Assembly (NCBI GenBank): GCA_030524785.1
Contig: JAUNFZ010000009.1
Location: 1-55,395, forward strand
Source: Eubacteriales bacterium
GTDB lineage: Bacteria; Bacillota; Clostridia; Lachnospirales; Lachnospiraceae
Direction: 5' to 3'
Length of the DNA stretch: 55,395 nt
The notes under the pieces were generated by a model. That model saw nothing but the letters and a program-made list of their open reading frames with translations, was not told the origin of the DNA and searched no databases. Shown in pieces: positions 18,469 through 49,937 of this stretch. Every line of letters begins with the position of its first letter. Position 1 is the first letter of the stretch. The translations under genes were made by a program, and so were the position numbers.

Positions 18469-18509
18469 ATGCCTCTCCTCCTAAAATTTATCCAAATCCC
18501 GTCGGCAGC

Positions 18510-19592: not shown

Positions 19593-19624
19593 GTCTCGTT
19601 CCTCCAAAAAGTTTTATTTAATTT

Positions 19625-20566: not shown

Positions 20567-20627
20567 ATATCCACCTTTCCAACATTTCCCGCATTTCTGC
20601 ACCCATTCTGCCGAAGGAAGTCATAAT

Positions 20628-24838: not shown

Positions 24839-25348
24839 CTACCTTTTTCTAAACGCCCAGAACTTATTTAATACAAAGTTTATCGGTACGCTCAGCAATA
24901 GGTTAAATATAGGCGCAGCTATTTTGGGAATATGTAAACACTGTACCCAGAGAACAGACAATATGCTGTTTAGAAAGAGCCCGGTAAACGCATATGAAAT
25001 ATACGTCTTTAGCAGCGCCTGCGGCCATGGTATTTCTTCATTATCCGCATGAAATACAAACTTTCTGTTCCAGTAAAATGACCAAAGTACGCTGATCGAA
25101 AACGCAATCAACTGCGCAACTAAATAATCTGTTTTGGGAAGCCACCGATGTTTTTGGAGCGCCAGCAGCGCAACCACATATATCACATAGGATATCACCG
25201 TATTACTCAATCCCACAATTCCAAACTTCACAAACTGCATAATCTCACTCCATCTTTTTTCCAAAAAATGAAGATGCAGTATTTTAAAAACAAAAACATG
25301 CAGTGCCTTTTCAATCATATTCCAAAATAAATTTTCTTTTTTGCTCAA
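24839..25348 (-). CDS. GtrA family membrane protein
   Basis: A small membrane protein of the GtrA family, with four hydrophobic helices after a short N-terminal extension. FVKFGIVGLSNTVISY opens the family domain, SFYWNRKFVFHA is the diagnostic stretch between helices 2 and 3, and NFVLNKFWAFRKR closes it. GtrA proteins are thought to flip undecaprenyl-phosphate-linked sugars across the membrane. The start is uncertain: I choose a TTG at 25348 (169 residues), because GGAAGG lies nine bases upstream and the codon overlaps the stop of the previous gene as TTGA; an ATG at 25318 is possible. It completes a three-part side-chain module with the GtrB-like and membrane glycosyltransferase genes upstream and is the last gene of the right-hand operon. 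Confidence 0.85.
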   Translation of the reverse strand: MSKKENLFWNMIEKALHVFVFKILHLHFLEKRWSEIMQFVKFGIVGLSNTVISYVIYVVALLALQKHRWLPKTDYLVAQLIAFSISVLWSFYWNRKFVFHADNEEIPWPQALLKTYISYAFTGLFLNSILSVLWVQCLHIPKIAAPIFNLLLSVPINFVLNKFWAFRKR

Positions 25349-26916
25349 GATGTTGTTCCTTCCAATGTTTTTCGGTAAAGTTTCCAACACATACTATTAT
25401 ACTCAATACTATCAATTTCTTCGTATTTATCCAACAGATATCTTTCCTGAGAAGGCTCAGAATATACCAGAATATATTCATAATTCCCATCAATTAAGGA
25501 TTGCACTAAAAACTTCTCCGCATCAGGATTAACAATTCCATTTTCGCTCATCTTCTTCGACAAATCCACCAAATCCTCCCAGTCTGCAAAATACAAACCT
25601 GTATCCATGTTTGCATAAGCAAATAACTGCGCTGTGGCTGTCCCAAAGGCTACTGTCCCCTCCGGTATCTTTTCCAGTAACTCGCTCTTTGTTTCCTTAA
25701 ACAAAGTTTCATCATAGGTCGTTGATATCTTTTCTGATAATGTTTTCCCAAATGTACTAACTGATGCAAGCGCCATAGACACAAGTATAGTCAGCGCAAA
25801 CAGGCTTGTTCCGCTTTGAGCCGGTTTCCGCAGTATGCCGTGCAGTGACCCGTCTGAATCCCCAAAATAATTATCACATAACACGGTTAAAACAAAAACC
25901 AGCGGGAATATGCAAATCGAAGCATTTGTTCCCTCAACCGGGCGATTTATATAATATGTATAAACGCCATATCCCATAATCGCGGCAAGCAGCATCATTA
26001 ACTGCCGTATACTGAGCCTAAGATGTAAAAAGTCCATGAAATAATAACCTAACACCACCAAAAAGGACGCGATGACAGCAAAATACGGTCCCCATGAATT
26101 CATAAGCGGCAAATACAACTTTTCTATAACATAGCTTTTTGAGCCAATCGGATAAATAAATGTTGAAACGGAAATCCCTTTTCCGCCAACGGCAATATTA
26201 TACAAGTTTACGATTCCATAAGCCAGAAAAAAGGCTCCTGCCAAAAAAGCAATATTTTTAATTATAACAATTAAACTCCATTTTCCCCTTTCCTGCGATT
26301 CCAAAAACGCGATTCCAATCGTCCATACCAAAGCGCATACCGCACCTATTTCAATATTCCACAGAATTGCGCACGCCGACGCAAGCCACCCAATCGCCAT
26401 GAAAACATGCCGTCTGTGCTTATCCTGTTCCGTATATATCTTAAGAAAGCAGGCCATCATGACTGTCTGGAACAGTAATCTGTGCGGCAACATTTGAAAA
26501 TACTGTCCCCAGAATATTTCTGTCGACACAACCGTGCAGGCCAGTACCGACAAATAATACACTGTATCGCTGCGCACCATTTTATGCAACGTCCAATAGC
26601 CCAATGCAAAACAAATTCCTCCCGTTATGGCAATCGCCGCTGCAACGGCAAGCCATTCATTGAGCCCCAGTATACGGAGCAATTTGCATGGAATAATATA
26701 AAACAGCCCATAGTGACCATATATAGAAGCCGAGTACAATTCATGCGGTGCAAAATACAGCGTATTAATTATAGAGTTTGTATAGGCATCTATATGATAT
26801 ATCGTGCCCAACTCATCCGCGAAAGGATTCGGGCAGTACAAAAACCATGCCTGAACGAAAACAATAAGTGCTGTAAAAATCCCTCTCGTCCTTGCGCACC
26901 CCCCCCCGTATATCAC
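25345..26916 (-). CDS. C-terminal part of a poly-G-interrupted GT-C-like membrane glycosyltransferase
   Basis: This frame of about 520 residues encodes most of a polytopic membrane protein: the outer loop ADELGTIYHIDAYTNS, many hydrophobic helices (FALGYWTLHKM, YFAVIASFLVVLGYYFMDF) and a soluble C-terminus (EGTVAFGTATAQLFAYAN). It begins at a GTG inside a run of nine G bases and has no ribosome binding site, so it is not likely to be made alone. With eight G bases the frame joins the N-terminal part at 26813-27325, giving one protein of about 659 residues. Between GtrB-like and GtrA genes, it should be the specific glycosyltransferase that moves the sugar from undecaprenyl phosphate to the polymer outside the cell. 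The GT-C class is inferred from shape and place; no sequence motif proves it. Confidence 0.7.
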   Translation of the reverse strand: MIYGGGCARTRGIFTALIVFVQAWFLYCPNPFADELGTIYHIDAYTNSIINTLYFAPHELYSASIYGHYGLFYIIPCKLLRILGLNEWLAVAAAIAITGGICFALGYWTLHKMVRSDTVYYLSVLACTVVSTEIFWGQYFQMLPHRLLFQTVMMACFLKIYTEQDKHRRHVFMAIGWLASACAILWNIEIGAVCALVWTIGIAFLESQERGKWSLIVIIKNIAFLAGAFFLAYGIVNLYNIAVGGKGISVSTFIYPIGSKSYVIEKLYLPLMNSWGPYFAVIASFLVVLGYYFMDFLHLRLSIRQLMMLLAAIMGYGVYTYYINRPVEGTNASICIFPLVFVLTVLCDNYFGDSDGSLHGILRKPAQSGTSLFALTILVSMALASVSTFGKTLSEKISTTYDETLFKETKSELLEKIPEGTVAFGTATAQLFAYANMDTGLYFADWEDLVDLSKKMSENGIVNPDAEKFLVQSLIDGNYEYILVYSEPSQERYLLDKYEEIDSIEYNSMCWKLYRKTLEGTTS

Positions 26917-27325
26917 ATTTTATCGCTTTCGAATACACAAGCATGACACAAAGCACAAGAACGATTGCATATACTGTGCCCGGAATCATATGACGGAAAT
27001 ACCCCAGCGGAATTTGCGGATAATTTTCTGTCTCACTTTTAAAAACTCTGAAAAAATAAACAACACTGAAGGATATCACAGCCAGTAAACATACAGTACG
27101 AAGCACAGGACTCAGCGTATGCTCTCCCGCCCTAGCAACGATAAACAGCGCTACCATATAAGCAATAAAAAATATTAACGTACCAATCACATAGATTTGA
27201 ATGTTGCCTATTATTCTTTCCGCACTCCATTTGCTACCATAAAAATAGTAAATAAATTCGGCGACCAAACCGACAGTCACTGATATAACAATCTTACTTT
27301 TTGAAAAGTCCTTCCGTTCATTCAT
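26813..27325 (-). CDS. N-terminal part of the poly-G-interrupted membrane glycosyltransferase
   Basis: From the ATG at 27325 (MNERKDF), which is coupled to the stop of the GtrB-like gene, this frame encodes several hydrophobic helices (VTVGLVAEFIYYF, YVIGTLIFFIAYMVALFIV, VYAIVLVLCVMLVYS). It crosses the poly-G run at 26899-26907 and then reads a short unrelated tail to a stop at 26813. Up to the run it fits well onto the frame at 25345-26916. In the state shown here the product is cut to about 170 residues and the gene is probably off. Confidence 0.7.
   Translation of the reverse strand: MNERKDFSKSKIVISVTVGLVAEFIYYFYGSKWSAERIIGNIQIYVIGTLIFFIAYMVALFIVARAGEHTLSPVLRTVCLLAVISFSVVYFFRVFKSETENYPQIPLGYFRHMIPGTVYAIVLVLCVMLVYSKAIKCDIRGGVRKDERDFYSTYCFRSGMVFVLPESFRG
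26899..26907 (-). repeat. Poly-G tract of nine bases splitting the GT-C-like gene
   Basis: Nine C on the plus strand, G on the coding strand. Eight (or eleven) G would join the two frames into one protein. Slipped-strand change of such tracts is a common on/off switch for surface-sugar genes; a sequencing error of the tract length is the alternative. Confidence 0.75.
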
Positions 27326-28274
27326 CTTCTTCGTGAGCTTCCTCCTCAAAATTCAGCCGTTCTTCTTCAATCACCAAAGGCCGCTTCATTACTCGCTGGT
27401 TGATACTCAGAACATACTCACCCATCAGACCGATAAACACAAGCTGGACAGCTCCCAGCAAAAATATGCCTATTAAAATCGGCGCTGTACCCATAGCAAA
27501 CTGATCCCAGTAAATAAGTTTTAAAATCAAATATACCAATGCGATAATGAAGCTAATAAAAGCTATGCCAAAACCGATGAAGGTCGCCAGTCGCAAGCCT
27601 ATCTTGGTATAGGAGGTGAAGCTTAACATGGCAATGTCATATAATGAAAAGAAATTATTCTTTGATTTTCCGGCTTTTCTTCTTTGCTGTTCATAAGGAA
27701 TCTCTTTTCTTTTAAATCCCAGCTCTGCCACAATTCCCCTAAGAAACGGCGTAGGATCTTCCAGTTTCCTCAATACATCTATAAAAGAACTGTCATACAA
27801 CCCAAATCCGGTAAAGTGCTCAATCTGCTCCACTTCCGAAAACTTTTTGATTAATTTATAATAACACGTTCTCAAAAAACGCATAAATTTATTCTCTTTA
27901 CTGGTCGTCTTAATTGCACTGACTATTTTGTACCCATTTTCCCATTCTTCAAGTAATTTAGGGATCATTTCCACCGGATCCTGAAAATCAGCGCACATAA
28001 GAATCGCACAATCGCCCGTAGTCTGCATCAGCCCATATATCGGCGAATTATTCTGACCAAAGTTTTTTGCATTCAGGATTGCTTTAATGTTCTTATTGTC
28101 TTTGCACATCTGCCGCAATTTGTCACGGGTACCGTCCTGAGAATTGTTATCAATAAAAACAATTTCGTATTCATATTGCGGCAATTTATTAAATTCTCCA
28201 ATAATCGCTTTGCTTAATTCCTCCACATTCTCAATCTCATTATATGTGGGAATCAACATACTTATTTTTTTCAT
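27318..28274 (-). CDS. GtrB-like undecaprenyl-phosphate glycosyltransferase (GT2)
   Basis: A 318-residue GT2 enzyme of the GtrB/DPM1 group. The catalytic part has MLIPTYNEIENVEEL, VFIDNNSQDGT and the metal motif MCADFQDP; RGIVAELGFKRKEIPYEQQ follows; two membrane helices stand in the C-terminal third (ATFIGFGIAFISFIIALVYL and IGIFLLGAVQLVFIGLMGEY). It should load a sugar from a nucleotide donor onto undecaprenyl phosphate on the inner face. The ATG at 28274 has GGAGGAAGT directly upstream; an ATG 18 bases earlier has no site. It is followed by the interrupted membrane glycosyltransferase and GtrA, the usual three parts of a side-chain system. Confidence 0.9.
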   Translation of the reverse strand: MKKISMLIPTYNEIENVEELSKAIIGEFNKLPQYEYEIVFIDNNSQDGTRDKLRQMCKDNKNIKAILNAKNFGQNNSPIYGLMQTTGDCAILMCADFQDPVEMIPKLLEEWENGYKIVSAIKTTSKENKFMRFLRTCYYKLIKKFSEVEQIEHFTGFGLYDSSFIDVLRKLEDPTPFLRGIVAELGFKRKEIPYEQQRRKAGKSKNNFFSLYDIAMLSFTSYTKIGLRLATFIGFGIAFISFIIALVYLILKLIYWDQFAMGTAPILIGIFLLGAVQLVFIGLMGEYVLSINQRVMKRPLVIEEERLNFEEEAHEEDE

Positions 28275-28292
28275 ACTTCCTCCCGACTGCAT

Positions 28293-29342
28293 TTATTGCC
28301 TTGCGGAAATTACTCTCCGAAAGCCTTCTTCTATTGTATAGACAGCGCTCCATCCAAGCCGACACAGCTTTTGATTATCCGGAGCAATATAATTTGCAAC
28401 GCTGTTTTCAACATATGGATCATCCGCCGCACGTTTCTGATATATCACCTTTAATCCCAGTTCGGGATATAAACCTGTCAGTTTTTCTGCCAATTGAGCA
28501 ATACTGCAAAACTGCGAAGTATTGCAGACATTATACGCTTCGCCATTTTTACCGCAAAGCAGTACCAGAAAATATGCCGCTACGGCATCCGCAATATAAC
28601 AAAAACTGCGTTTCGCTTTTCCATCGCTTTTAATAACAATATCTCTCTTTTCTATAATGTCATTTGCAAAAGAAGCAAACACTCTCGGATCCGTTTTCAA
28701 ATCCATCGTAGGTGCATATGTATGCCATATACGCACGATTTTGCACGGAACATTCTTTTGCACCAACCACGCCTTACACATTGTTTCGGCCATGCGTTTG
28801 CTTTCACTATAGCAATTATGAATATCCAGAGGATCTAATACACCCAAAGTGTTTTCTGCAATCCTTGTTTCGCCTTTTACAACCCCATAAATATCTCCCG
28901 TACTGAAAAGCAAATACCCCAAAACCTTTTTTTTCACAGCAAGTTCCAGCATATGATAATTTCCTATGATATTAGGCTTCAATACTTCAACTGGGCAAAC
29001 GCTGTAATACTGCGGACTTGCCAGGCTCGCTGCATGGATAATATAATCCACATTTTCCGATATATCTATTTCACCGTCCAGAGAAGCAGTATACACTTTC
29101 ATATATTTTGCGTTTGCATATTCTTTAAAACGCCCGGCAAATTTATCGGCCGATCGAACTAATGCTATAATATTTACATGAACACCGGCAACCTCATTTA
29201 AATATATAAGCATATAAACTACATATGAGGCCAGCATACCGTATGCTCCGGTAACTAATACCGTTTTATTCTCTAACATTTCCCACGGAATATTTCTATT
29301 ATAAATATCCTTCAGGTCTTCTTCTATAATGTCTCGTTTCAT
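28293..29342 (-). CDS. NAD(P)-dependent SDR epimerase/reductase
   Basis: A 349-residue extended SDR protein. The Rossmann motif is VLVTGAYGMLASYVVYML, with DYIIHAASLASPQYY, LLFSTGDIYG and the catalytic YSESKRMAE. HTYAPTMDLKTDPRVFASF and KAKRSFCYIADAVAAY recall nucleotide-sugar dehydratases/epimerases/decarboxylases. It should act on a nucleotide-linked sugar, most likely the CDP sugar made by the genes upstream, as a reductase or epimerase in the last steps. The ATG at 29342 lies in a short gap after the other SDR gene, with GGAGG upstream. The exact reaction cannot be read from the sequence. Confidence 0.82.
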   Translation of the reverse strand: MKRDIIEEDLKDIYNRNIPWEMLENKTVLVTGAYGMLASYVVYMLIYLNEVAGVHVNIIALVRSADKFAGRFKEYANAKYMKVYTASLDGEIDISENVDYIIHAASLASPQYYSVCPVEVLKPNIIGNYHMLELAVKKKVLGYLLFSTGDIYGVVKGETRIAENTLGVLDPLDIHNCYSESKRMAETMCKAWLVQKNVPCKIVRIWHTYAPTMDLKTDPRVFASFANDIIEKRDIVIKSDGKAKRSFCYIADAVAAYFLVLLCGKNGEAYNVCNTSQFCSIAQLAEKLTGLYPELGLKVIYQKRAADDPYVENSVANYIAPDNQKLCRLGWSAVYTIEEGFRRVISARQ

Positions 29343-29414
29343 GCGGCATACACCTCCATCCTGCTTACCATTTTCTGTATTTCAGGATGCCATATGCCTG
29401 CTACTACTATAGTC

Positions 29415-30359
29415 TTATTTTGCCCCCCCCCGAGCAATATTCCGTAGATTCCATAACTTCGTTCTGAACTTTATCATATCCGATACTCCTTCTGCAAATT
29501 CTATTTCAGGCGCATAATGTATTTCATCTTTCAGCGTACTGATATCCGCCTCTAATCCAAGTAAGCTGCTATGCTCCGACGGTTTCTCAAATTCACACGC
29601 CGCACTGTCGCCGAAACAATCTTTCAATTCCATTATAAATTCTTTCAGTGGCCTTGCCTGTCCACTCGCAATACAATAGACACCATTTTTTACCGGTTCT
29701 TTTCCTAATAAATAAAATATCTGTCCCGCATCTTTCTCATGAAGATAATCCCACATTTGCGTCGCAGCCGAAAACTTTGCCGTGTTTCCGTCAAGCCACT
29801 GGTCAATTGCATAAACGAGCATTGTTCCTTCATTATCGTAGCGCCCATATACGCTGAAAATCCTGCCCCAAACAAACTCCATTCCCAACTGACTACATCT
29901 TTTTTCGCTAAGTTTTCCTGCCGCATATTTTGCCATACCATATGAAATAAGCGGTGATACTGATGAATCCGGCCTTATCATCCCGTCTATTTTTCCATAT
30001 TCAGCTTGCGAACCCGCTCCGATAAATTTCCTGCATCCCAGCTTTTTTGCCAGTTCAACTGCATCCAATGTATATTTTATATTTTTTTCCTGCAATATCG
30101 GGTTATCACGATTAGTTTTAGAGGTATAATCCCATGCGAAATGATAAAAGACATCATATTTCTTTTCTTCAATATCAACTGATTCCAACTCATCCAAACT
30201 ACTTTCACAGATAGTAATCAAACTGCTTTTAGGCAATCTGTCCAAATGAACAGACTGCCTCCTTACAATCGCTAAAACCTCAATATTTTCTTTCACGCAC
30301 GCCTCAATAAGCGCCACCCCAATCATACTGGTAGCGCCGGTGACTACAATACTTTTCAT
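29415..30359 (-). CDS. NAD-dependent SDR reductase/epimerase, candidate CDP-sugar ketoreductase
   Basis: A 314-residue SDR protein with VVTGATSMIGVALIEA at the N-terminus, YHFAWDYTSKTNRDNP, KFIGAGSQAEYG and the catalytic YGMAKYAAGK. This subgroup includes reductases that end CDP-dideoxysugar pathways (abequose synthase-like RfbJ, and YerF for yersiniose). Its place right after the thiamine-diphosphate enzyme supports reduction of a keto branch. The ATG at 30359 has GGGAG six bases upstream. The last codons lie in a run of nine G followed by a TAA; a different tract length would extend the protein by about 28 residues to a stop that overlaps the next gene's ATG. Confidence 0.82.
   Translation of the reverse strand: MKSIVVTGATSMIGVALIEACVKENIEVLAIVRRQSVHLDRLPKSSLITICESSLDELESVDIEEKKYDVFYHFAWDYTSKTNRDNPILQEKNIKYTLDAVELAKKLGCRKFIGAGSQAEYGKIDGMIRPDSSVSPLISYGMAKYAAGKLSEKRCSQLGMEFVWGRIFSVYGRYDNEGTMLVYAIDQWLDGNTAKFSAATQMWDYLHEKDAGQIFYLLGKEPVKNGVYCIASGQARPLKEFIMELKDCFGDSAACEFEKPSEHSSLLGLEADISTLKDEIHYAPEIEFAEGVSDMIKFRTKLWNLRNIARGGAK
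29423..29431 (-). repeat. Poly-G tract of nine bases at the 3' end of an SDR gene
   Basis: Nine C on the plus strand. In the present length the gene ends five codons after CTCGG; with eight G the frame runs on for about 28 more codons and stops at a TGA that overlaps the next ATG. Confidence 0.7.
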
Positions 30360-30375
30360 TTCAGTCTCCCGGTTC

Positions 30376-32160
30376 TTACTTTTCCGCAACCATATTTGCC
30401 TTTACTTCTTCTGCCGGCAAATACGGGAACATATCTTCATAATTTCTGGAAACCAAAGTCCCGTCCGGCAATTTATCAGATGCGATTCTCGGGATCAGGA
30501 GTTGCCATTCCGGCGTCATAACCTCGCATATTACCGGACCATCATATGCAAGTACTTCTCTTATTTTGTTCTCCGCTTCTTCTACATTTTCTATTCTAAC
30601 GCCCTTAATTCCATAGGCCGCAGCAATTTTCATAGAATCCGGACACCATACGCCTGAATCCGGGCCTTCGCCGACAAATCTGTCCTCCATAAAATTACGC
30701 TGTGTATGGCGAATCAATAAATACCCGTTATTGTTTAAGATAAAAACTTTAATCGGCAAATTATTATGCTTTATCGGCGCAAATTCCTGCAGATTCATCT
30801 GAAGGCTGCCATCGCCTGTAATAACAATTGTATCTTTCCTGTCATTCGCCATACAAGCTCCTATACCGGCGCACCAGTATCCCATAGAAGATAATCCACC
30901 GGTCGTTAAATATTTTTGGCCTTTTTTTACTTTCCATGTCTGGCAGGCAACGTGGAAGCAGGAACCCGTATCCACTAAAATCGCTGCGTCAGCCGGAGCA
31001 ATCTGAGATAACTTATCAATAAAATAATAGGAATTTACAGGCTTTTCATCTTTATATTCAGGCTGAACCACCGGATACTTTTTCTTCCATTCGTTACACA
31101 ATTTCACCCATTCCTCATAGTCCGGAAGCGTATGCCCCGCCAGATCCTCCGCCATTTTCTCAAAGAACGCTTTACAATCAAGTTTTGCTTTATAATCAAC
31201 CTGTACTCCTGGTTTATCTAATTCCTTTTGATCGATATCCACCACATAAATATACGCATTCTTCCCAAACACTTTGGGATTGTGTCCCACCAGAGAAGAT
31301 GCCATTCTGCATCCCACGGAAATAATCACGTCTGCATTCTGAATTGCAAAGTTTGCAGAACGTTCTCCATAGTTTCCGGGTCTTCCAACATACAGATCAT
31401 TGTCAGATTCCATCAGGTCTATGCCAAGTCTGGCCGTGATCACCGGGATCCGCACTTTATTTACATATTCATAAAATATATTCCTTGCTCCGGCAAGACT
31501 AACGCCCTGTCCAACAAGAAATACGGGTCTTTTTGCTTTTTCCAGCAATTTATAAGCCTGCTTTACCGCCTGTTTCAGAGAAACCCTGCCCTCTGCTTCT
31601 TTTTCGGGAACATATTTCTCCAGATATTTTTCATTTACTTCCATTTTCTGAATATCAAGCGGCACATCAATCCAGACAGGTCCCGGGCGCCCTCCCGTCG
31701 CTTCATGATAGGCTTTTTCCAGATAATATTCAATTTTCTGGGGATCATCTACCGTAATAAAATATTTGGTCACATTTTCAACCAACGGCTTAATATTAAT
31801 TCCCTGAACCCCATGCTGACGGATCTTTGTTTCCTCCTGATACTGCACAAAAGACAGCGCCGCCTGTCCGGATATAATAATCATGGGCGATGAATCCGTA
31901 TAACCGCCCACTACGCCGTTCATTGCATTTACGCTTCCGGGGCCTGCCGTAACAATCGTAAGAGCTGGTTTATTCTTCATTCTTCCATAGGCGTCGGCAG
32001 ACATAGCCGCGCTCTGCTCATGATGGGTACAAATAATATTGTAATTCTTATTCTTCCCAACCGCGTCATTCAGCCACATGGCCTGACCGCCTGTTACCAT
32101 AAATGCCGTGTCAATTCCTTTCTTCGCAAAAAAATCAAAAATAAATTCTGAAACGTTCAT
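30376..32160 (-). CDS. Thiamine-diphosphate-dependent enzyme (acetolactate synthase-like, YerE-like role)
   Basis: A 594-residue three-domain ThDP enzyme. The N-terminal pyrimidine-binding domain has the catalytic Glu in CTHHEQSAAMSADAY; the middle domain follows with LVGQGVSLAGARN; the C-terminal ThDP-binding domain has VITGDGSLQMNLQEF with the GDG metal motif. Length matches acetolactate synthase and YerE, which decarboxylates pyruvate and adds the two-carbon unit to C4 of CDP-4-keto-3,6-dideoxyglucose to make yersiniose. The gene stands in a CDP-sugar operon right after a 4-hydroxy-2-oxovalerate aldolase gene, so the 2-oxo acid used here may be 4-hydroxy-2-oxovalerate rather than pyruvate. 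AAGGAGG precedes the ATG. Confidence 0.87.
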   Translation of the reverse strand: MNVSEFIFDFFAKKGIDTAFMVTGGQAMWLNDAVGKNKNYNIICTHHEQSAAMSADAYGRMKNKPALTIVTAGPGSVNAMNGVVGGYTDSSPMIIISGQAALSFVQYQEETKIRQHGVQGINIKPLVENVTKYFITVDDPQKIEYYLEKAYHEATGGRPGPVWIDVPLDIQKMEVNEKYLEKYVPEKEAEGRVSLKQAVKQAYKLLEKAKRPVFLVGQGVSLAGARNIFYEYVNKVRIPVITARLGIDLMESDNDLYVGRPGNYGERSANFAIQNADVIISVGCRMASSLVGHNPKVFGKNAYIYVVDIDQKELDKPGVQVDYKAKLDCKAFFEKMAEDLAGHTLPDYEEWVKLCNEWKKKYPVVQPEYKDEKPVNSYYFIDKLSQIAPADAAILVDTGSCFHVACQTWKVKKGQKYLTTGGLSSMGYWCAGIGACMANDRKDTIVITGDGSLQMNLQEFAPIKHNNLPIKVFILNNNGYLLIRHTQRNFMEDRFVGEGPDSGVWCPDSMKIAAAYGIKGVRIENVEEAENKIREVLAYDGPVICEVMTPEWQLLIPRIASDKLPDGTLVSRNYEDMFPYLPAEEVKANMVAEK

Positions 32161-32170
32161 TTTATCCTCC

Positions 32171-33223
32171 TTATAATAATGATCCTAATTGATAATCCAT
32201 ATTGTGTCCTGAAGCGCTTCCTGCAGGGCGGCTCAATTTTTCTGCAATTTCAACAATCATATCCTCCTGCCCCGCCACCGCTTTCCTGCGCCCAAGCTCT
32301 TTGAAAATATCCCGTGCATCTACATGAAATTCCTCTGCAGCTTTCTGCACATGAATCTTAAATGCTGAAAAGACACCATTCTGGCCGCTTACAATACTGA
32401 GAGGATCCTGACCCATCTCTTTACCCATAATCCCCGGCATAATCTGCTCACTTGCGTCTAATAATTTATAAAAATCAATACCTGTTTTTACATGACATTT
32501 TTCAAGTAGCGCAACAAAATCCTCTAACTGACAGTTTCCTGCTCCGGCGCCAAACCCGCGCAAAGTTCCGTCTATAATTGTCGCCCCTTCTAAATAAGCC
32601 GTATAAGCATTCGCTACAGCCATGCCCATATTATTATGCGGATGAAAACCCACATGAATCTGCAACCCATCATATAACGTACTGATGGTTTTCTGAACCA
32701 TTTCCGGAGTAGATGCTCCTGCAGAATCCATTAAAATAACCCCTTGCGCTCCATATGACTGCATTTTCTGCGCTTCTTCAAGAATCTTCTCCGTCGATGC
32801 CATATGATACATCATGAGAACGCCGTATGTCTCTTTCCCCGCATTTCTCAGGAATTCTATGTGCTGTCTTGTGGTATCCGCTTCCGTACAATGGCACCCG
32901 ATCGTAAACAATTCTACCCCGATTTCAATTGCCGGTTCCAGATTATCATGAATCGTTCCAAATCCGGGAATCATATATGCGCCCAAACGCGTCCTTTCCA
33001 GACTATCCCGCGCGGTTTGCAGCATTTCTTTTTCTGATATTCCCGAAAATCCAACCTGCAGTGAAGACGCTCCCAGTCCGTTCCCATGTCCAACGATAAT
33101 TGTATGCACACCGGAGCCATCCATTGCCAAACAATAATCTTCTATACTATCTTTACTAATCTGATGCTTTACCGCGTGATTTCCGTCGCGTAGCGTTGAA
33201 TCAAATATCATTAATTTAGCCAT
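32171..33223 (-). CDS. 4-hydroxy-2-oxovalerate aldolase-like enzyme
   Basis: A 350-residue DRE-TIM metallolyase. The signature is FDSTLRDGNHAVKHQ at the N-terminus, with FTIGCHCTEADTT, VILMDSAGASTPE, the metal-binding HVGFHPHNNMGMAVANAY and GTLRGFGAGAGNC. This is the DmpG/MhpE pattern, including the C-terminal partner-binding part. It joins or splits pyruvate and an aldehyde at 4-hydroxy-2-oxovalerate. The ATG at 33223 overlaps the stop of the acetaldehyde dehydrogenase gene by eight bases, as expected for partners that channel acetaldehyde. No other meta-cleavage catabolic gene is present, so a building role in sugar synthesis is more likely than breakdown of aromatics; that is inference. 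Confidence 0.9.
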   Translation of the reverse strand: MAKLMIFDSTLRDGNHAVKHQISKDSIEDYCLAMDGSGVHTIIVGHGNGLGASSLQVGFSGISEKEMLQTARDSLERTRLGAYMIPGFGTIHDNLEPAIEIGVELFTIGCHCTEADTTRQHIEFLRNAGKETYGVLMMYHMASTEKILEEAQKMQSYGAQGVILMDSAGASTPEMVQKTISTLYDGLQIHVGFHPHNNMGMAVANAYTAYLEGATIIDGTLRGFGAGAGNCQLEDFVALLEKCHVKTGIDFYKLLDASEQIMPGIMGKEMGQDPLSIVSGQNGVFSAFKIHVQKAAEEFHVDARDIFKELGRRKAVAGQEDMIVEIAEKLSRPAGSASGHNMDYQLGSLL

Positions 33224-34100
33224 TCGCGTCACCCAAAATCCTTTGTCTCGCATAATTCTCTGCAATTTCAATAGCCGCACAGGTAATAACGTCTAAATTA
33301 CCAGAATATTTGGGAAGATAATCCCCCAATCCTACTACCTGCAAAGAAGTCGTAACCCGCCCATTTTCATACACCGGCTCCATAACAATCTTATATCCGG
33401 GTACATATTGACGGATTTTTTTCTCCATCTCCTTAACACTTTTTCTGATTGCCGCCATATCCGGATTATCTATCAGGGCATATAAAGTGTTATGCATAGT
33501 AATCGGCGGCTCCGCCGGATTCAGCACTATAATAGCCTTTGTATTTTCAATTCCCGTAAATTCAGACAGGGCATCGCGTGTTGCCTGAGTAAATTCATCA
33601 ATATTATTTCTCGTTCCTGCTCCGGCGGATTTTGACGCAATCGTCGCCACTATCTCTATATATTTTGTGTCCGGATGTATCTGACTGATGGCATACGCAA
33701 TAGGTATCGTTGCCTGTCCGCCGCATGTAATCAAATTTACATTGTCCTCGCTTAAACACTCCTGCATATTCAGTACGGGAACGCACATCTTCCCAACATG
33801 CGCCGGTGTCAAATCAATCGCAAATTTCCCCAACCGCTTTAAAATAGGGGCGTTTCTGTGATGTACGCTTGCTGAAGTCGCATCAAACACAATCTCGCAG
33901 CAATCAGGAGCGTTTTCTATTGCACGAATCGAATCAACGGATGTCGGAACTCCCAATTCTCTGGCAATTTTAATACCCGCAGAATCCGGATTTCTTCCCG
34001 CAAACATACCGCACTCCAAAATTTCTGAGCGCTCCAGTTTAAGCAAAATATCAGTTCCAATATTTCCGGTACCGATAATCCCAACCTTAACTTTATTCAC
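33216..34100 (-). CDS. Acetaldehyde dehydrogenase (acylating), DmpF/MhpF type
   Basis: A 294-residue NAD-dependent enzyme interconverting acetyl-CoA and acetaldehyde. It starts VKVGIIGTGNIGTDILLKL (NAD site) and carries LITCGGQATIPIAYA with the catalytic Cys, SAGAGTRNNIDEFT, and ALIDNPDMAAIRKSV, all hallmarks of DmpF/MhpF. The start is a GTG at 34100 that overlaps the rfbH stop by eight bases, with AGGCGG upstream. The gene overlaps the aldolase gene in turn, so the two are made as a pair. In known relatives the two proteins form a complex that channels acetaldehyde. Confidence 0.92.
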   Translation of the reverse strand: MNKVKVGIIGTGNIGTDILLKLERSEILECGMFAGRNPDSAGIKIARELGVPTSVDSIRAIENAPDCCEIVFDATSASVHHRNAPILKRLGKFAIDLTPAHVGKMCVPVLNMQECLSEDNVNLITCGGQATIPIAYAISQIHPDTKYIEIVATIASKSAGAGTRNNIDEFTQATRDALSEFTGIENTKAIIVLNPAEPPITMHNTLYALIDNPDMAAIRKSVKEMEKKIRQYVPGYKIVMEPVYENGRVTTSLQVVGLGDYLPKYSGNLDVITCAAIEIAENYARQRILGDANG

Positions 34101-35439
34101 TTTCTACCGCCTCTCTAATCACCTTCGCCATATAATCAATCATTTCATCCGTCATTCCAGGATAAACTCCTACCCAGAACGTATTATTCATGATAAATTC
34201 CGTATTTTCCAGATTGCCGGCCACGCGATAAGCCGCCGTTCCGCGAATCTGATCAAAGCAAGGATGTTTTATCAGATTGCCGCTGAACAAAAGCCTTGTC
34301 TGGACATTGTGCTTTTCAATATACGCCGTAACGTCGTTTCGTTTCAAACCACTCTCCGGGCGCACGCTGATCAAAAATCCGAACCATGATGGACGGCTGT
34401 TTTCCGCTGCCTCCGGCAAAATCAGCTTATCCTGTACACATTCCAACGCTTTATGCAGCCGCTCCCAGTTATGGCGCCTGCGCTCAATAAATCCCGGGAA
34501 CTTCTTCAGCTGCTCACAGCCGATGGCCGCCTGCATATCAGTTACTTTCAGATTGTATCCAAAATGGCTGTAAACATATTTATGGTCGTAGCCTCTTGGC
34601 AGTTCCCCGAACTGCCCGTCAAAACGATGACCACAGAAATTATCCCGACCGGACGGACAGATACAGTCGCGCCCCCAGTCCCTGAAGGACAGAATCAGTC
34701 TGTGCAGTTTTGGATTGTTTGTGTATACGCATCCACCTTCGCCCATCGTCATATGGTGCGGCGGATAAAAGCTGCTGGTTCCGATATCGCCCCATGTACC
34801 AGTGAACTTTGTCTCGCCATTAATCGTATACTGAGTCCCCAGAGCGTCGCAGTTGTCTTCCACCAGCCACAGATTATGCTTTTCGCAGAACGCTTTTACC
34901 TGTGTTAAGTCAAAGGGATTTCCCAAGGTATGCGCGATCATAACGGCCTTTGTTTTTTCAGAAAGAGCGTCCTCAAGCTTTGTGACGTCAATATTATACT
35001 GCGGAACGGTCACATCTACAAATACGGGGATTGCACCGTACTGAATCACCGGCGTTACCGTTGTCGGAAAACCGCAGGCAACGGTAATCACTTCATCTCC
35101 GCGCTTAATCTGCCGCTCTCCCAGCTCCGGCGCAGTAAGGGTCATAAACGCGATCAGATTGGCGGAAGATCCGCTGTTTACCAGATGCGCGTACTTTACG
35201 CCGATCCATTTTGCAAATTCTTTTTCAAATTCATCTGCAAATCTTCCGGTGGTAAGCCAAAAATCCAGAGCAGCGTCCGTCAGAGCGCACATTTCTTTTT
35301 CGTCAAATACACGCGCCGCATAGGTAATACGCTCCCCTTCTTTGTAAGGTTCTTTTTTCTCCTTAAAATCATGATAATATTCCGCCACCAGCTCTTTAAT
35401 CTGTTGGCGTGCTTCCTGTTCACTGTTCCACGTTGCCAT
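34093..35439 (-). CDS. rfbH: CDP-4-keto-6-deoxy-D-glucose 3-dehydrase (E1, RfbH/AscC)
   Basis: A 448-residue PMP-dependent dehydrase with a [2Fe-2S] cluster that removes the 3-hydroxyl from CDP-4-keto-6-deoxyglucose. The aminotransferase fold is evident (LVNSGSSANLIAF, EDNCDALGTQY), but the usual PLP lysine is replaced by histidine in SFYPPHHMTMGEGG, which is the mark of this family. Cysteines in WGRDCICPSGRDNFCGH fit the cluster ligands. The partner reductase E3 (AscD/RfbI type) is not in the window, so electron supply must come from elsewhere. Length is normal for the family. It lies between rfbG and the acetaldehyde dehydrogenase gene. Confidence 0.95.
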   Translation of the reverse strand: MATWNSEQEARQQIKELVAEYYHDFKEKKEPYKEGERITYAARVFDEKEMCALTDAALDFWLTTGRFADEFEKEFAKWIGVKYAHLVNSGSSANLIAFMTLTAPELGERQIKRGDEVITVACGFPTTVTPVIQYGAIPVFVDVTVPQYNIDVTKLEDALSEKTKAVMIAHTLGNPFDLTQVKAFCEKHNLWLVEDNCDALGTQYTINGETKFTGTWGDIGTSSFYPPHHMTMGEGGCVYTNNPKLHRLILSFRDWGRDCICPSGRDNFCGHRFDGQFGELPRGYDHKYVYSHFGYNLKVTDMQAAIGCEQLKKFPGFIERRRHNWERLHKALECVQDKLILPEAAENSRPSWFGFLISVRPESGLKRNDVTAYIEKHNVQTRLLFSGNLIKHPCFDQIRGTAAYRVAGNLENTEFIMNNTFWVGVYPGMTDEMIDYMAKVIREAVESE

Positions 35440-35451
35440 TGCCTTCCTCCA

Positions 35452-36540
35452 TTATCTTCTTTCGCCTGCGCGCAAAAATTCTTCTATCTGCCTGTCCATA
35501 CACGCCCGCACATCATTTCCTTCCAACCAGCATTTGCTCCACTCCACTACCATCTCAATAGCCTTTTCCAAATTCCAGTGCGGCTTCCAGCCAAACGTGG
35601 ACTTCAGTTTCGAGCAATCAAGTTTCAGAAAATTTGCCTCATGAGGGCCGCCGTCATAACGGTTTACCCACTTCATTCCTTCGCCCCACTTGGCTACAAA
35701 TACATCTACTAAAGCGCCCGTTTCAAAGCAGTCTGCGTCGTCCGGACCTACATTGTAATATCCCGCATAAGCGATATCTTCATACTGTTTTGCCGCAATC
35801 ATCAAATAGGCGTACAGCGGCTCCAGAACATGCTGATACGGTCTTGTGGAAAACGGATTTCTCACCACAATATCTTCTTTCTTTATCGCTGCACGAATAC
35901 AGTCCGGAATGATACGGTCGTTTGCAAAATCACCCCCGCCAATTACGTTGCCTGCCCGCGCAGTTGAAATAGCAGTCCGCCCATCCGCAAAAAAGCTATT
36001 TTTATAGGAATGAGTCACTAATTCTGAACAGGACTTAGAATTAGAATAAGGATCATATCCGTCCAATTCTTCATTTTCCCGATAGCCCCATGCCCATTCT
36101 TTGTTTAAATATACCTTGTCCGTTGTTATATTTAAAAAAGATTTTACACATTCACATTTTCGCACACATTCCAGAATATTTACGGTGCCCATCACATTTG
36201 CTTCATAAGTATACACCGGATCTTTATAAGAATCCCGCACGATCGGCTGTGCCGCCAGATGGAGAACAATCTCCGGCTGCGCTTCTTCAAAAACTTCCTG
36301 AAGATGTTTCAAGTCCCTGATATCTCCGATAACGGAATTCACATCTTTTTCAATTTCCGCAATATGAAACAACGACGGCTCGGTGGGCGCTTCCAGTGAA
36401 TAACCCGTCACCTCCGCCCCAGTATTTGCCAACATTTTGCAAAGCCATGAACCCTTAAAACCGGTATGTCCGGTTACCAAGACTCTTTTGCCATTATAAA
36501 AAGCTAAATCGAACGGTTTCTTTTCCATAATTTTCTCCAT
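35452..36540 (-). CDS. rfbG: CDP-glucose 4,6-dehydratase
   Basis: A 362-residue SDR enzyme making CDP-4-keto-6-deoxyglucose. VLVTGHTGFKGSWLCKML is the NAD site typical of RfbG, with LHLAAQPIVRDSYKDP, ITTDKVYLNKEW and the catalytic YSNSKSCSE, then ARAGNVIGGGDFANDRIIPD, which is diagnostic. It begins four bases after rfbF. Two starts are possible: the ATG at 36540 or the one at 36528, which has GGAG six bases upstream. It supplies the substrate of RfbH. Confidence 0.96.
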   Translation of the reverse strand: MEKIMEKKPFDLAFYNGKRVLVTGHTGFKGSWLCKMLANTGAEVTGYSLEAPTEPSLFHIAEIEKDVNSVIGDIRDLKHLQEVFEEAQPEIVLHLAAQPIVRDSYKDPVYTYEANVMGTVNILECVRKCECVKSFLNITTDKVYLNKEWAWGYRENEELDGYDPYSNSKSCSELVTHSYKNSFFADGRTAISTARAGNVIGGGDFANDRIIPDCIRAAIKKEDIVVRNPFSTRPYQHVLEPLYAYLMIAAKQYEDIAYAGYYNVGPDDADCFETGALVDVFVAKWGEGMKWVNRYDGGPHEANFLKLDCSKLKSTFGWKPHWNLEKAIEMVVEWSKCWLEGNDVRACMDRQIEEFLRAGERR

Positions 36541-36543
36541 ACG

Positions 36544-37323
36544 CTAATCTTCCCACTTTTTCCAGGGAGCTTTTTGATTCGCCAAAAGGCTCTCCAGTAT
36601 GTCTTTCTCGCGCTTCGTATCCATGCACTGCCAATATCCCGTATGCGAATACGACATCAGCTCACCCTCCGCCGCCAGCTGCTCCAGCGGAGTTTTCTCA
36701 AAGACGGTATCGTCTCCTTCAATGTAATCAAATATTTCCGGATTCAAAACCATATAGCCGGCGTTAATTGGCGCACCGTCTGACACGCTCTTTTCACGAA
36801 AAGAGCGCACTGCATTGTTGCCTCCGATATCCAGAATCCCTTTCTGCTGCTCCAAAAGCACCGAGGTCAGTGTTGCAATCTTTCCATGGAGCTGGTGAAA
36901 TTCCACCAGCTTACGAATATCTACGTCGCACACACCGTCGCCATACGTCATCATAAACGTCTCATTACCCACATACGGTTGAATACGCTTAATACGCCCG
37001 CCTGTCATGGTATGCAGTCCGGTATCCACCACCGTCACTTTCCACGGCTCGACATGCTGCTCGTGGACAATCATTTTATTGCCCTGCGTAAAATCAAAGG
37101 TAATATCGGATGTATGCAGAAAATAATCCGCAAACCATTCTTTTATCGCATGCTGCTTGTACCCCGCGCAGATAATAAACTCGTTGAATCCATAATACGA
37201 GTATTCTTTCATAATATGCCAGAGAATCGGCTTGCCGCCAATTTCAATCATAGGTTTTGGTTTGTATTCCGATTCTTCGGATATTCTGGTACCAAAGCCT
37301 CCGGCTAAGATTACGACTTTCAT
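36544..37323 (-). CDS. rfbF: Glucose-1-phosphate cytidylyltransferase
   Basis: A 259-residue nucleotidyltransferase making CDP-glucose, the entry to CDP-dideoxysugars. MKVVILAGGFGTRISEESEY is the nucleotide-binding start, followed by KPKPMIEIGGKPILWH, TYGDGVCDVD and SHTGYWQCMDTKREK, all diagnostic for RfbF. Length is normal. The ATG has AGGAAAA upstream. It is the first of eight closely packed genes (rfbF to the SDR at 28293) that form the CDP-sugar block. Confidence 0.97.
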   Translation of the reverse strand: MKVVILAGGFGTRISEESEYKPKPMIEIGGKPILWHIMKEYSYYGFNEFIICAGYKQHAIKEWFADYFLHTSDITFDFTQGNKMIVHEQHVEPWKVTVVDTGLHTMTGGRIKRIQPYVGNETFMMTYGDGVCDVDIRKLVEFHQLHGKIATLTSVLLEQQKGILDIGGNNAVRSFREKSVSDGAPINAGYMVLNPEIFDYIEGDDTVFEKTPLEQLAAEGELMSYSHTGYWQCMDTKREKDILESLLANQKAPWKKWED

Positions 37324-39325: not shown

Positions 39326-41662
39326 TTACCCGTTCAATTCTCCATATGTCGGTATACTAAAAAACACAAAACGTTGTCCCTGTCTATATCGTCCATAACT
39401 TTCTCCCTCAGACATTTCAGGAATTGTAAGGCTGTCTATAATTTCTCCCGTAATCTTATTAGTGAGATAAACTACTTCTCCCGCTTTTAAATTGAAATTG
39501 CAAATATACGCTCCCATCTGCATATTTGCTTTCCCGTTAATTACAATAGTCTCTCCCGCTGGAAGGTACACGCTTGGGCATGAATACTTCTGCAAATTTC
39601 CTTTTTCATCCGAAAGGGAAAATTCTTCTAACTTAATGTTTTCAGCAGAGCCATTGTATATTTCTATCCAATCATTAAAACTACCCTTAGCCGAAACTTC
39701 ATTGATTACCAGTCCGTCTATTCCTTCTGTTCGTTCAAACATCGCAAAGATTTCCGTCTCATCCGTCGTTACAATTTTCTCGTCAAGAATAAGGGATTCT
39801 TCATATACCTCCGTGCCATTTACCAACCAATACGCCAATTGATAACCAGCTTGTGGTTTCGCACTAATCTCTAATTTTGCTTCTTTGTAATAATTTCCTT
39901 CATAGATAACATCATCTGACATTTCCACACGAATCGTATTACATAAAATTTCACCATAACGATTTCCATGAACTATAAGCTTATATTTTTTAGAAAGATC
40001 CCAATAACTCTCCATTTGAGAAAGCAACTCCGTATTTCTGCACTCTATTTCTGCTTCTAGACTTTGAAGCCGCATTTCCCAAGAAGCAAGAAAAGTAGAT
40101 ATCCACTTTTCCCCCTGATTATACTGATTCTCTTTCCATTTATATATCTCAAGTTTCATCTCATCCGTAATTTCTTTACAAACTTGAAGTATATGTTCCG
40201 TTTTTAGTACAGTATTGCACAAATCGCTAATCATATTAATGAATTTATTTCTATAATACTGGCTGCTTATTATATTTTCAAATCTCTCGTCTCTGTCACC
40301 CCTCAATAGCTCATCTAATATCTCAGACCCAAAAATCTCCGTTTTATAATCCTCATCTGACATATAAATGAGATCCATATCAAACAAGAGAAATCGATAA
40401 CGTCCATCTGCATATTCATTTCCTTCTACCGGCTCCCCAATGTACCGCCATGTGCCATAATTATTCCACGGCCAATCTACATTATTTAACACCGTTTGAA
40501 GCGCATAATATAGCATAAACTGATCTATATCTACCATAGCTTCTAGTTTTTCTCTGTTTTCTTTTTCTGACAAATCTGCCATAAACAATTCTTCAATATC
40601 TGAAAAATGATATATCACCGGCCCCTTCTGCACTTCTACAAATTCTTTATTCACGCCTGTTTCCTGTCCAATATTAAAAGCGGAATAATCCTCTGTCATA
40701 CTCATAAGCCCATAATATTCACCATTTAAGTATACGACCACCTTCTTACTTCCAGCCACAGGATATAGTCCCGCTTCATTGGCAAGTCTACTGGCAAGAT
40801 CCCACCTCACTTGTGTCTCCGCATAATCCTGTCCACCGCTTTTCAATAAAATTTTATTAAAAACTCTATTATGATGGTATTCTTCTACATCAGCATAATC
40901 TCTCCAAAATTCTCCCGAAAACTTGTCCTTTGTACTGTCATATATCTCATTTGCAATCAGCTTTAACGATTTAATAGGATACCCACGGGAAGCCCCCCCC
41001 TGTGTTCCTAATCCTATCCCCTGCTCTGCTTCAACAGTTCCATCCGAATCAAAAGCTCCCAAATATGCTTCTCGAATCCACTCATCCCCTCGCTGATTAT
41101 AGTTTCCCGGCACCAGGGATTTGTCTGCTTCCGGATCTCCTCCTTCATCTAAATACTTCTGGTAAGCCGCCCCCGGAACAAATATACCCTTTTCATAATC
41201 AAACAAATTATCATTATCTGTAATCAATGAAATTACAGGCACATTGTAGCGGCTCTTTATATTCTTTCCCACGAAAAAGCTTCTATTTATCACTTCACTA
41301 TACTCGCCATTGTAATACGCCACTGCTCTGAGTACAACAACTTTTTCGTCTTCTTCGGCCAAAACACTGATAGGATCCCGATATTTTTCTCCCGAAGTTC
41401 TTGGATCGTCGCCATTTAACGTATACAAGATCTCCGCTCCTTTAGGAAGTGCTGTGTCTTTATTTAATTCTATATCGATCTGACGATCATAAAATCCACT
41501 GTTCAAATTGCACTGTACAGCATTTTCACCTGTGTATGCTGAAATAACTTCCAGCGTTTCTTTTCCGCTGTAGTATTTCCATACAAATATCATAGAAAGC
41601 AATAATATCAATAGGAAAATATTTTTGATAATACTTTTTCCAACTGTATTCGTTGTTTTCAT
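39326..41662 (-). CDS. CotH-like kinase family surface protein with a lamin-tail domain
   Basis: A protein of about 778 residues anchored by one N-terminal helix (IIKNIFLLILLLSMIFVW). A chitobiase-type beta domain follows (GAEILYTLNGDDPRT), then a CotH kinase-like part with KILLKSGGQDYAETQVRWDL, VVYLNGEYYGLMSMTEDY and LLFDMDLIY, and a C-terminal lamin-tail domain (GLVINEVSAKGSFNDWIEIY). CotH proteins are atypical kinases that phosphorylate surface proteins. I choose the ATG at 41662 because the longer frame needs a TTG. It is directly coupled to DUF4956 and VTC genes, a set often found together. A run of eight G lies in the reading frame near 40993; the frame is open in the state shown. Confidence 0.87.
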   Translation of the reverse strand: MKTTNTVGKSIIKNIFLLILLLSMIFVWKYYSGKETLEVISAYTGENAVQCNLNSGFYDRQIDIELNKDTALPKGAEILYTLNGDDPRTSGEKYRDPISVLAEEDEKVVVLRAVAYYNGEYSEVINRSFFVGKNIKSRYNVPVISLITDNDNLFDYEKGIFVPGAAYQKYLDEGGDPEADKSLVPGNYNQRGDEWIREAYLGAFDSDGTVEAEQGIGLGTQGGASRGYPIKSLKLIANEIYDSTKDKFSGEFWRDYADVEEYHHNRVFNKILLKSGGQDYAETQVRWDLASRLANEAGLYPVAGSKKVVVYLNGEYYGLMSMTEDYSAFNIGQETGVNKEFVEVQKGPVIYHFSDIEELFMADLSEKENREKLEAMVDIDQFMLYYALQTVLNNVDWPWNNYGTWRYIGEPVEGNEYADGRYRFLLFDMDLIYMSDEDYKTEIFGSEILDELLRGDRDERFENIISSQYYRNKFINMISDLCNTVLKTEHILQVCKEITDEMKLEIYKWKENQYNQGEKWISTFLASWEMRLQSLEAEIECRNTELLSQMESYWDLSKKYKLIVHGNRYGEILCNTIRVEMSDDVIYEGNYYKEAKLEISAKPQAGYQLAYWLVNGTEVYEESLILDEKIVTTDETEIFAMFERTEGIDGLVINEVSAKGSFNDWIEIYNGSAENIKLEEFSLSDEKGNLQKYSCPSVYLPAGETIVINGKANMQMGAYICNFNLKAGEVVYLTNKITGEIIDSLTIPEMSEGESYGRYRQGQRFVFFSIPTYGELNG
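40993..41000 (-). repeat. Poly-G tract of eight bases inside the CotH gene
   Basis: Eight C on the plus strand, coding for part of TQGGASRG. At this length the frame is open. One base more or less would cut the protein at roughly a third of its length. Confidence 0.65.
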
Positions 41663-41664
41663 TT

Positions 41665-42336: not shown

Positions 42337-42366
42337 TTCTCTTTCCTATCACCTTTCTTTCAATAT

Positions 42367-49926: not shown

Positions 49927-49937
49927 ATACCTCGTAT

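Follow-up and report, generated by a model that had tools for sequence, protein, structure and literature searches.

A candidate operon for a CDP-linked sugar with a four-carbon branch, and evidence for a donor-supply cassette linked to YerE-like enzymes

We analysed a 55,395-nucleotide stretch of DNA from a member of the Lachnospiraceae (hereafter the window; contig JAUNFZ010000009.1 of assembly GCA_030524785.1), in which eight closely spaced genes encode proteins related to (i) enzymes of sugar nucleotide synthesis (RfbF, RfbG, RfbH), (ii) an acetaldehyde dehydrogenase and a 4-hydroxy-2-oxovalerate aldolase, (iii) a thiamine diphosphate (ThDP)-dependent carboligase, and (iv) two members of the short-chain dehydrogenase/reductase (SDR) family. 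We are fairly confident that this operon makes a cytidine diphosphate (CDP)-linked 3,6-dideoxyhexose with a four-carbon branch at C4, i.e. the skeleton of erwiniose, for a cell-surface polysaccharide. The basis of this reading is gene identity, conserved linkage, clade membership and some residues of the predicted active-site pocket of the ThDP enzyme. The gene block is real and coherent, and the pathway read from it, which is known in kind through the enzyme ErwE, is probably right. What is new is the evidence for a conserved cassette supplying the donor substrate; no description of such a linkage was found in the partial literature searched.

Gene block and proposed pathway

The block is located on the minus strand at positions 28293-37323, in the order rfbF, rfbG, rfbH, dehydrogenase, aldolase, ThDP enzyme, SDR2 and SDR1 (Table 1). 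All eight of the packed genes claimed in the first-pass annotation are present, and successive intergenic gaps, counted from rfbF, are 3, 12, -8, -8, 10, 16, 72 and 0 bases, the last one lying between SDR1 and a glycosyltransferase family 2 (GT2) gene. The start codons of the aldolase (33223) and SDR2 (30359) were taken slightly within the longest open reading frames (ORFs). Curated NCBIfam equivalog cut-offs were passed by five of the eight proteins (RfbF, RfbG, RfbH, the dehydrogenase and the aldolase), and none was reached by SDR1 or SDR2 in the NCBIfam scan of the window proteins. Given its conserved linkage in relatives, the grouping is not a chance one.

Table 1. Features of the window discussed in the text, with the evidence for their assignment
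Feature	Position	Strand	Evidence
rfbF, glucose-1-phosphate cytidylyltransferase, makes CDP-glucose	36544..37323	-	TIGR02623, 371 bits (cut-off 300)
rfbG, CDP-glucose 4,6-dehydratase	35452..36540	-	TIGR02622, 450 bits (cut-off 278)
rfbH, CDP-4-keto-6-deoxyglucose 3-dehydrase (E1), C3 deoxygenation	34093..35439	-	NF011936, 733 bits (cut-off 423)
Acylating (acetylating) acetaldehyde dehydrogenase	33216..34100	-	TIGR03215, 399 bits (cut-off 282)
4-hydroxy-2-oxovalerate aldolase	32171..33223	-	TIGR03217, 364 bits (cut-off 286); HMGL-like and DmpG_comm domains
Predicted YerE/ErwE/JanthE-like ThDP carboligase	30376..32160	-	Best PDB relative 8rph; Glu48, GDG at 449-451
SDR2, SDR/epimerase family, candidate side-chain ketoreductase	29415..30359	-	PF01370
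SDR1, SDR/epimerase family	28293..29342	-	PF01370; homologues near ThDP gene in many related clusters
GT2 of GtrB/ArnC/PgfS type, candidate sugar-to-lipid-carrier transferase	27318..28292	-	PF00535; best NCBIfam match PgfS, below cut-off
GtrA-like membrane protein, candidate flippase partner of GT2	24839..25390	-	PF04138, 78.9 bits
RmlA-, RmlB- and RmlD-like genes	17599-20602		Pfam domains
ATP-binding cassette (ABC) export genes, one with Wzt C-terminal domain	48625-50732		

RfbH could be aligned with 3bcx over nearly its full length, and His220, Cys193, Cys251, Cys253 and Cys261 are kept. To these positions we assign, as a presumption, the [2Fe-2S] motif of E1 (C-X57-C-X1-C-X7-C) and the histidine that replaces the lysine binding pyridoxal phosphate (PLP). 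Cys257, which lies outside the motif, is an arginine in the window protein. The dehydrogenase contains a CGGQAT motif with Cys126, which we take to be the catalytic residue. Both the dehydrogenase and the aldolase exceed their curated cut-offs, their genes are adjacent, and the communication domain DmpG_comm is present, as in a DmpFG-type pair.

Comparison with the Protein Data Bank (PDB) revealed that the best solved relative of the ThDP protein is 8rph (402 bits, vs 231 for plant acetolactate synthase), the structure of JanthE of Janthinobacterium sp. HH01 (available part of PMC12188165). The ThDP protein was also below the cut-off in all 25 families listed of the 52 NCBIfam matches (best, 359.5 vs 538), and for both reasons an ordinary acetolactate synthase is unlikely. 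The catalytic glutamate and the ThDP-binding GDG motif are retained (Table 1), the latter being CDG in JanthE.

In the proposed pathway, RfbF, RfbG and RfbH would convert glucose 1-phosphate into CDP-4-keto-3,6-dideoxyglucose. The dehydrogenase would reduce acetyl-CoA to acetaldehyde, which the aldolase, acting in the synthetic direction, would join with pyruvate to give 4-hydroxy-2-oxovalerate. This acid, as the predicted donor in this organism, would be decarboxylated by the ThDP enzyme and a 3-hydroxybutanoyl carbanion equivalent would be added to the C4 ketone. Reduction of the side-chain carbonyl by an SDR protein would then give a 3,6-dideoxy-4-C-(1,3-dihydroxybutyl)hexose; the candidate is SDR2, whose role we presume to be like that of YerF, i.e. 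reduction of the side-chain carbonyl. The product is most likely CDP-3,6-dideoxy-4-C-(1,3-dihydroxybutyl)hexose, whose stereochemistry is not predictable. Its sugar has ten carbons in total, the same number as erwiniose, in agreement with the carbon skeleton named in the first-pass annotation. The GtrB-like transferase and the GtrA-like protein would finally attach the sugar to a lipid carrier, from which it would probably be added as a side group.

The available part of a 2025 review names ErwE of Pectobacterium atrosepticum as the enzyme that makes erwiniose, and states that it prefers hydroxylated 2-oxo acids such as 4-hydroxy-2-oxobutanoate, 4-hydroxy-2-oxopentanoate and 4-hydroxy-2-oxohexanoate as donors and makes no use of pyruvate (PMC12247030). 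Since 4-hydroxy-2-oxopentanoate is the same compound as 4-hydroxy-2-oxovalerate, the core of the earlier proposal is right in outline: gene linkage and published in vitro work on related enzymes support it well, but it is not without precedent, and the accompanying statement that no enzyme set had been described for such a sugar is outdated. Descriptions of erwiniose itself give a branched sugar of 10 carbons that occurs as a side-chain residue (in the available parts of the group PMC9912281, PMC8657720 and PMC5706390). Compared by its published description, the ErwE pathway shares with the proposed one the acceptor CDP-4-keto-3,6-dideoxyglucose, a hydroxylated 2-oxo-acid donor and a 10-carbon product (PMC12247030, available part); the window differs in that the operon itself contains candidate donor-making genes and in that the host, judged by its nearest relatives, resembles the Lachnospiraceae.

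The branch of caryophyllose, a further sugar of this kind, is six carbons long. According to the same review, MMAR_2332 of Mycobacterium marinum, an enzyme associated with caryophyllose, is YerE-like with a donor preference resembling that of ErwE, and of the YerE-like enzymes predicted so far, more than 200 in number, the vast majority have no identified product structure (PMC12247030, available part). YerE, the enzyme of yersiniose A synthesis, likewise performs a ThDP-dependent carboligation on CDP-3,6-dideoxy-4-keto-glucose, but it accepts only pyruvate and 2-oxobutyrate as donors, and no aldolase or dehydrogenase of the yersiniose A pathway is named in the part of the review that was available (PMC12247030).

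Linkage of the dehydrogenase-aldolase pair with ThDP and rfb genes

Genome contigs were scanned once with an alignment of the aldolases of the window and of a second Lachnospiraceae bin (G029, described below), and loci were chosen by aldolase similarity alone. At least 593 stretches matched, of which 164 encode an aldolase relative, and the best 80 were taken; all counts out of 80 refer to these. The set includes the contig of G029, as L103, and two loci from one bin, L100 and L102. The dehydrogenase gene was found near that of the aldolase in every one of the 80 loci (within 200 bases in 76 and at about 1 kb in 4). A gene for a YerE-like ThDP enzyme was present in 76 loci, 0-3.0 kb from the aldolase gene and only once on the opposite strand (L133); the four loci lacking it are L103, L167, L169 and L171. 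The pair and the ThDP gene were accompanied by at least one rfb gene in 61 loci and by rfbF, rfbG and rfbH together in 55, counts in which eight weak rfb matches, of 24-33% identity, are included. When rfb matches were restricted to at least 40% identity, 60 loci retained at least one rfb gene and 50 contained all six genes. Among the 25 loci in which, by the unrestricted count, at least one of the six genes is lacking, 11 are shorter than 10 kb.

As controls we used 12 loci with aldolases of lower similarity (2 of them from the family, 5 the best remaining ones in the phylum search, and 5 from plasmids), and none of the 12 contained a ThDP or rfb gene (Fisher p 5e-12 for ThDP vs the 80-locus set). 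Similarly, a ThDP gene within 1.5 kb of the aldolase gene was found in none of 29 other phylum loci, vs 51 of the 80. Because the controls differ from the 80 in similarity, this comparison shows two kinds of aldolase and is not a random draw. In an aldolase tree (117 rows; flagged for long branches such as L045 and L124), 6 label changes sufficed for the 76 ThDP-linked rows, compared with a mean of 34.3 after shuffling, and 3 for 36 controls, compared with 31.1. Both this tree and the ThDP tree described below were built quickly, without bootstrap. Judged from the aldolase sequences, the ThDP-linked and control enzymes are each clustered, though not as single clades.

These data bear on the possibility that the pair is a catabolic one, which splits 4-hydroxy-2-oxovalerate derived from the degradation of another compound and is placed in a sugar operon by accident. 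Meta-cleavage pathways are the classic role of such dehydrogenase-aldolase pairs, and copies of the pair are known in other contexts. However, the pair is flanked by rfbH and the ThDP gene and its reading frames overlap, the ThDP-linked aldolases require the few label changes given above, and the examined neighbours are sugar-nucleotide, glycosyltransferase and export genes, with no catabolic meta-cleavage context around the pair. A catabolic role is thus extremely improbable. The window proteins belong to the same families as DmpG and DmpF, above curated cut-offs and with the communication domain included, but differ from them in that the window aldolase groups with the ThDP-linked ones, apart from most controls, and in the synthetic direction proposed here.

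The 76 ThDP-linked loci span 14 named phyla, plus two loci that were not placed, and the cassette with YerE-like enzymes thus occurs in at least 14 phyla, including one archaeal bin (L132). Contamination is possible, since many of these loci, including the single archaeal one, are metagenome bins. Two groups of loci have a different gene content. In L137, L144, L148, L162, L166 and L170 the dehydrogenase, the aldolase and the YerE-like enzyme are accompanied by a FabG-like SDR protein, and rfbF, rfbG and rfbH were not found in the stretch examined; the ThDP enzymes of these loci share a single clade with the L129 and L161 enzymes. The Pseudomonas loci L150 and L155 carry, near 3.4-5.1 kb, a second, distant ThDP gene (28-29% identity to that of the window), which immediately precedes the JanthE-like gene.

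Within the family of the window, the aldolase is rare: it was detected in 4 of 397 genomes, including that of the window. A YerE-like ThDP enzyme was found at E 1e-100 in 42 of 200 family genomes, and the window's genome is the only one of the 42 that also encodes the aldolase (taking the 200 as within the 397). When 11 larger stretches of genomes without the aldolase were analysed, six proved to hold the ThDP gene and at least one rfb gene, all six with homologues of SDR2 and GT2. Because six of the 11 share these genes with the window, the family seems to hold both presumed short-branch and presumed long-branch versions of a similar locus. SDR2 homologues adjoin aldolase-linked as well as aldolase-free YerE-like enzymes.

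Phylogeny and pocket of the ThDP enzyme, and rival pathways

The ThDP tree (106 rows, midpoint-rooted) contains 75 aldolase-linked rows; the partial genes of L101, L134 and L151 were dropped and the second copies of L150 and L155 kept. The window enzyme is placed in a 13-row clade (support 100) within a 17-row clade (support 99), in which the other rows are all aldolase-linked. Of the 29 aldolase-free rows from the family, 25 constitute a clade of their own (support 100).

For the comparison of pocket residues we used 12 plus 61 aldolase-linked rows (the 61 are called the other aldolase-linked rows below) and 25 of the 29 aldolase-free ones, setting aside L005, L016, L019 and L031, which lie outside the main clade. 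Two JanthE residues, V121 and Y268, are matched in the window enzyme (V118 and Y264). At the first position V occurs in 38/61 of the other aldolase-linked rows, whereas the aldolase-free clade has D in 20/25; at the second, the respective residues are Y (44/61) and M or V (19/25). A conserved GY is followed by the hydrophobic residues LL in the window enzyme and by L (50/61) and then M (40/61) or S (14/61) in the other aldolase-linked rows, in contrast to H (20/25) and then S (24/25) in the aldolase-free ones. In JanthE, Y268 and P293 help to hold FAD, and the V121A substitution reduces activity (PMC12188165, available part).

Several observations weigh against the four-carbon branch, of which the first three concern the chemistry. 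(i) The E1 dehydrase needs an RfbI/E3-type reductase as its partner, and the genome, which is 92% complete, gave no match to PF00175 at E 1e-5 and none to PF00970 at E 0.01; an electron donor of RfbH other than an RfbI-type reductase is possible. A Fer2 match was obtained in five of five genomes behind the loci, and, being uninformative on the RfbI partner, was not used. (ii) The block contains two SDR genes, and one reduction is required. (iii) Aldehydes other than acetaldehyde could feed the aldolase. The same pathway would in that case yield a branch of other length or decoration, e.g. from propanal (made from propionyl-CoA) or from a hydroxylated aldehyde. Aldolases of the DmpG type accept several aldehydes. 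The donors given for ErwE, which include 4-hydroxy-2-oxobutanoate and 4-hydroxy-2-oxohexanoate, are also consistent with such a variant (PMC12247030, available part). Against it are the presence of an acetaldehyde dehydrogenase in all 80 loci and the score of the window copy, which is above the acetaldehyde dehydrogenase cut-off, and we consider it unlikely.

The remaining points concern the ThDP enzyme. (iv) The aldolase-linked ThDP rows do not form one clade (75 rows, 5 changes); a 55-row set (support 97) joins the group of the window enzyme with the aldolase-free clade and nine more aldolase-linked rows, leaving JanthE and 40 companions outside, and the aldolase-free L005 (from G199, a 70% complete genome) adjoins the window's ThDP group (support 93). 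It follows from these placements that aldolase linkage changed more than once and that the window enzyme is only distant kin of JanthE. (v) P293, Y297, K567, M406 and C458 of JanthE correspond to S, H, R, T and G in the window enzyme, and it is the aldolase-free rows that match JanthE at Y297 (Y in 21/25) and K567 (K in 25/25). (vi) The matching pocket residues track phylogeny and are not independent evidence; as far as the alignment goes, the pocket evidence is mixed. (vii) The short-branch status of the aldolase-free relatives is itself only presumed.

Part of this evidence would suit a yersiniose-type pathway, in which pyruvate is the donor of the ThDP enzyme, the branch has two carbons, and the dehydrogenase-aldolase pair has some other function. 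Sets comprising RfbF, RfbG, RfbH, a YerE-like ThDP enzyme, an SDR protein and GT2 without the aldolase do occur in the same family, the window enzyme groups in the midpoint-rooted tree with the aldolase-free family enzymes and not with JanthE, and several JanthE pocket residues are missing from it. On the other hand, a ThDP gene is linked to the pair in 76 of 80 loci, the window's own clade is aldolase-linked, and the residues at the V121 and Y268 positions and after GY differ from those of the aldolase-free clade; the donor preferences of ErwE (PMC12247030) and JanthE (PMC12188165), as given in the available parts of these sources, point in the same direction. We therefore regard a two-carbon branch as quite improbable and retain the reading of a four-carbon branch derived from 4-hydroxy-2-oxovalerate.

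Wider occurrence of the cassette and surroundings of the operon

JanthE takes 4-hydroxy-2-oxovalerate together with benzaldehyde, and its physiological substrates were stated in 2025 to be unidentified (PMC12188165, available part). We observed 98.7% identity over 594 residues between JanthE and its counterpart in locus L110 (Rugamonas rivuli FT103W), where the genes follow in the run rfbF, rfbG, rfbH, ThDP enzyme, dehydrogenase and aldolase. If JanthE's own genome has the same neighbours, this identity and gene run lead to the prediction that 4-hydroxy-2-oxovalerate is its natural donor. JanthE, the closest solved relative of the window enzyme, thus has a near-identical counterpart with the same neighbours as that enzyme, but differs from the latter in several pocket residues and is distant on the ThDP tree.

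A different setting was found in G029 (L038 1026-12858, G029:C18, the contig of L103), whose dehydrogenase and aldolase are 66% and 63% identical, respectively, to those of the window. Here the pair lies beside (i) two GDP-mannose 4,6-dehydratases (GDP, guanosine diphosphate; TIGR01472, above cut-off), (ii) a GDP-fucose-synthase-like protein and an RfbH/ColD-like protein, each below its own cut-off, and (iii) a two-subunit ThDP enzyme, whose alpha part matches the E1 alpha subunit of pyruvate dehydrogenase (PDH) with 107 bits, below the cut-off of 394, and whose beta part gave no match at E 1e-30 and was assigned by reading of the sequence. The RfbH/ColD-like protein, a member of the DegT family, has, by motif reading, a histidine at the position of the PLP lysine, and an SDR1 homologue (36%) is also encoded near the pair. 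The donor cassette in G029 seems to be coupled to a different nucleotide sugar and to a different ThDP superfamily, and the cluster is possibly a GDP-linked variant of branched-sugar synthesis, whose predicted product would be a GDP-linked dideoxy sugar with a four-carbon branch; no sugar of this kind was found in the literature searched.

Two further loci combine the cassette and a YerE-like gene with E1-type sequences: L161 (304-13258) also contains an E1 alpha/beta pair, an HpaI-type aldolase and methyltransferases, and L129 (1-15000) gave weak E1-like matches. This mix of genes may reflect stepwise building of a longer branch.

The joint reading, i.e. a portable donor-supply cassette for long-branched sugars, with a GDP-linked variant in G029 and 4-hydroxy-2-oxovalerate as the natural donor of JanthE, is put forward tentatively, its chances being a little short of even. 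Few structures of long-branched sugars are known, and a dehydrogenase-aldolase pair near a ThDP gene would allow donor and branch length to be predicted from DNA. The linkage extends the erwiniose-type route to the Lachnospiraceae and many other groups and suggests a natural job for JanthE, a laboratory enzyme. Such clusters may also supply self-contained enzyme sets for chiral tertiary alcohols.

In the plasmid collection no YerE-like ThDP match was obtained at E 1e-80, and 280 records carried the aldolase, of which five were examined. For four of these the annotation, which is incomplete, shows no sugar-nucleotide cluster, L090 as the fifth lacks annotated genes altogether, and tblastn searches of all five revealed no ThDP or rfb gene. 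The plasmids of Phaeobacter (L088, 5066-13260) and Leisingera (L089, 5068-13251) share a similar aldolase-dehydrogenase block with ATP-grasp, FAD/NAD(P)-binding and aminotransferase genes; an interpretation of the Phaeobacter copies as polysaccharide genes was rejected, as the annotation gives no support for it. In the plasmids of Streptomyces (L091, 6182-11663) and Kitasatospora (L092, 6251-10653) the pair lies beside genes for a carrier protein, a CoA ester lyase or citrate-lyase-family protein and a MaoC dehydratase, with a ketoacyl synthase III (KAS III) gene also present in L091. These blocks look like another synthetic use of the dehydrogenase-aldolase pair.

In the window, the genes surrounding the block (Table 1) suggest that the locus encodes an exported, rhamnose-containing polysaccharide, to which the branched sugar would be attached as a side group by the Gtr-like system. 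Two ORFs between the GT2 and GtrA-like genes (523 and 178 codons) gave no Pfam match. Homologues of GT2, 60-72% identical, are present in aldolase-free clusters as well. Within the polysaccharide region, at positions 39326-43092, there is also a row of genes encoding a protein with CotH-kinase and lamin-tail domains, a DUF4956 protein and a VTC-domain protein.

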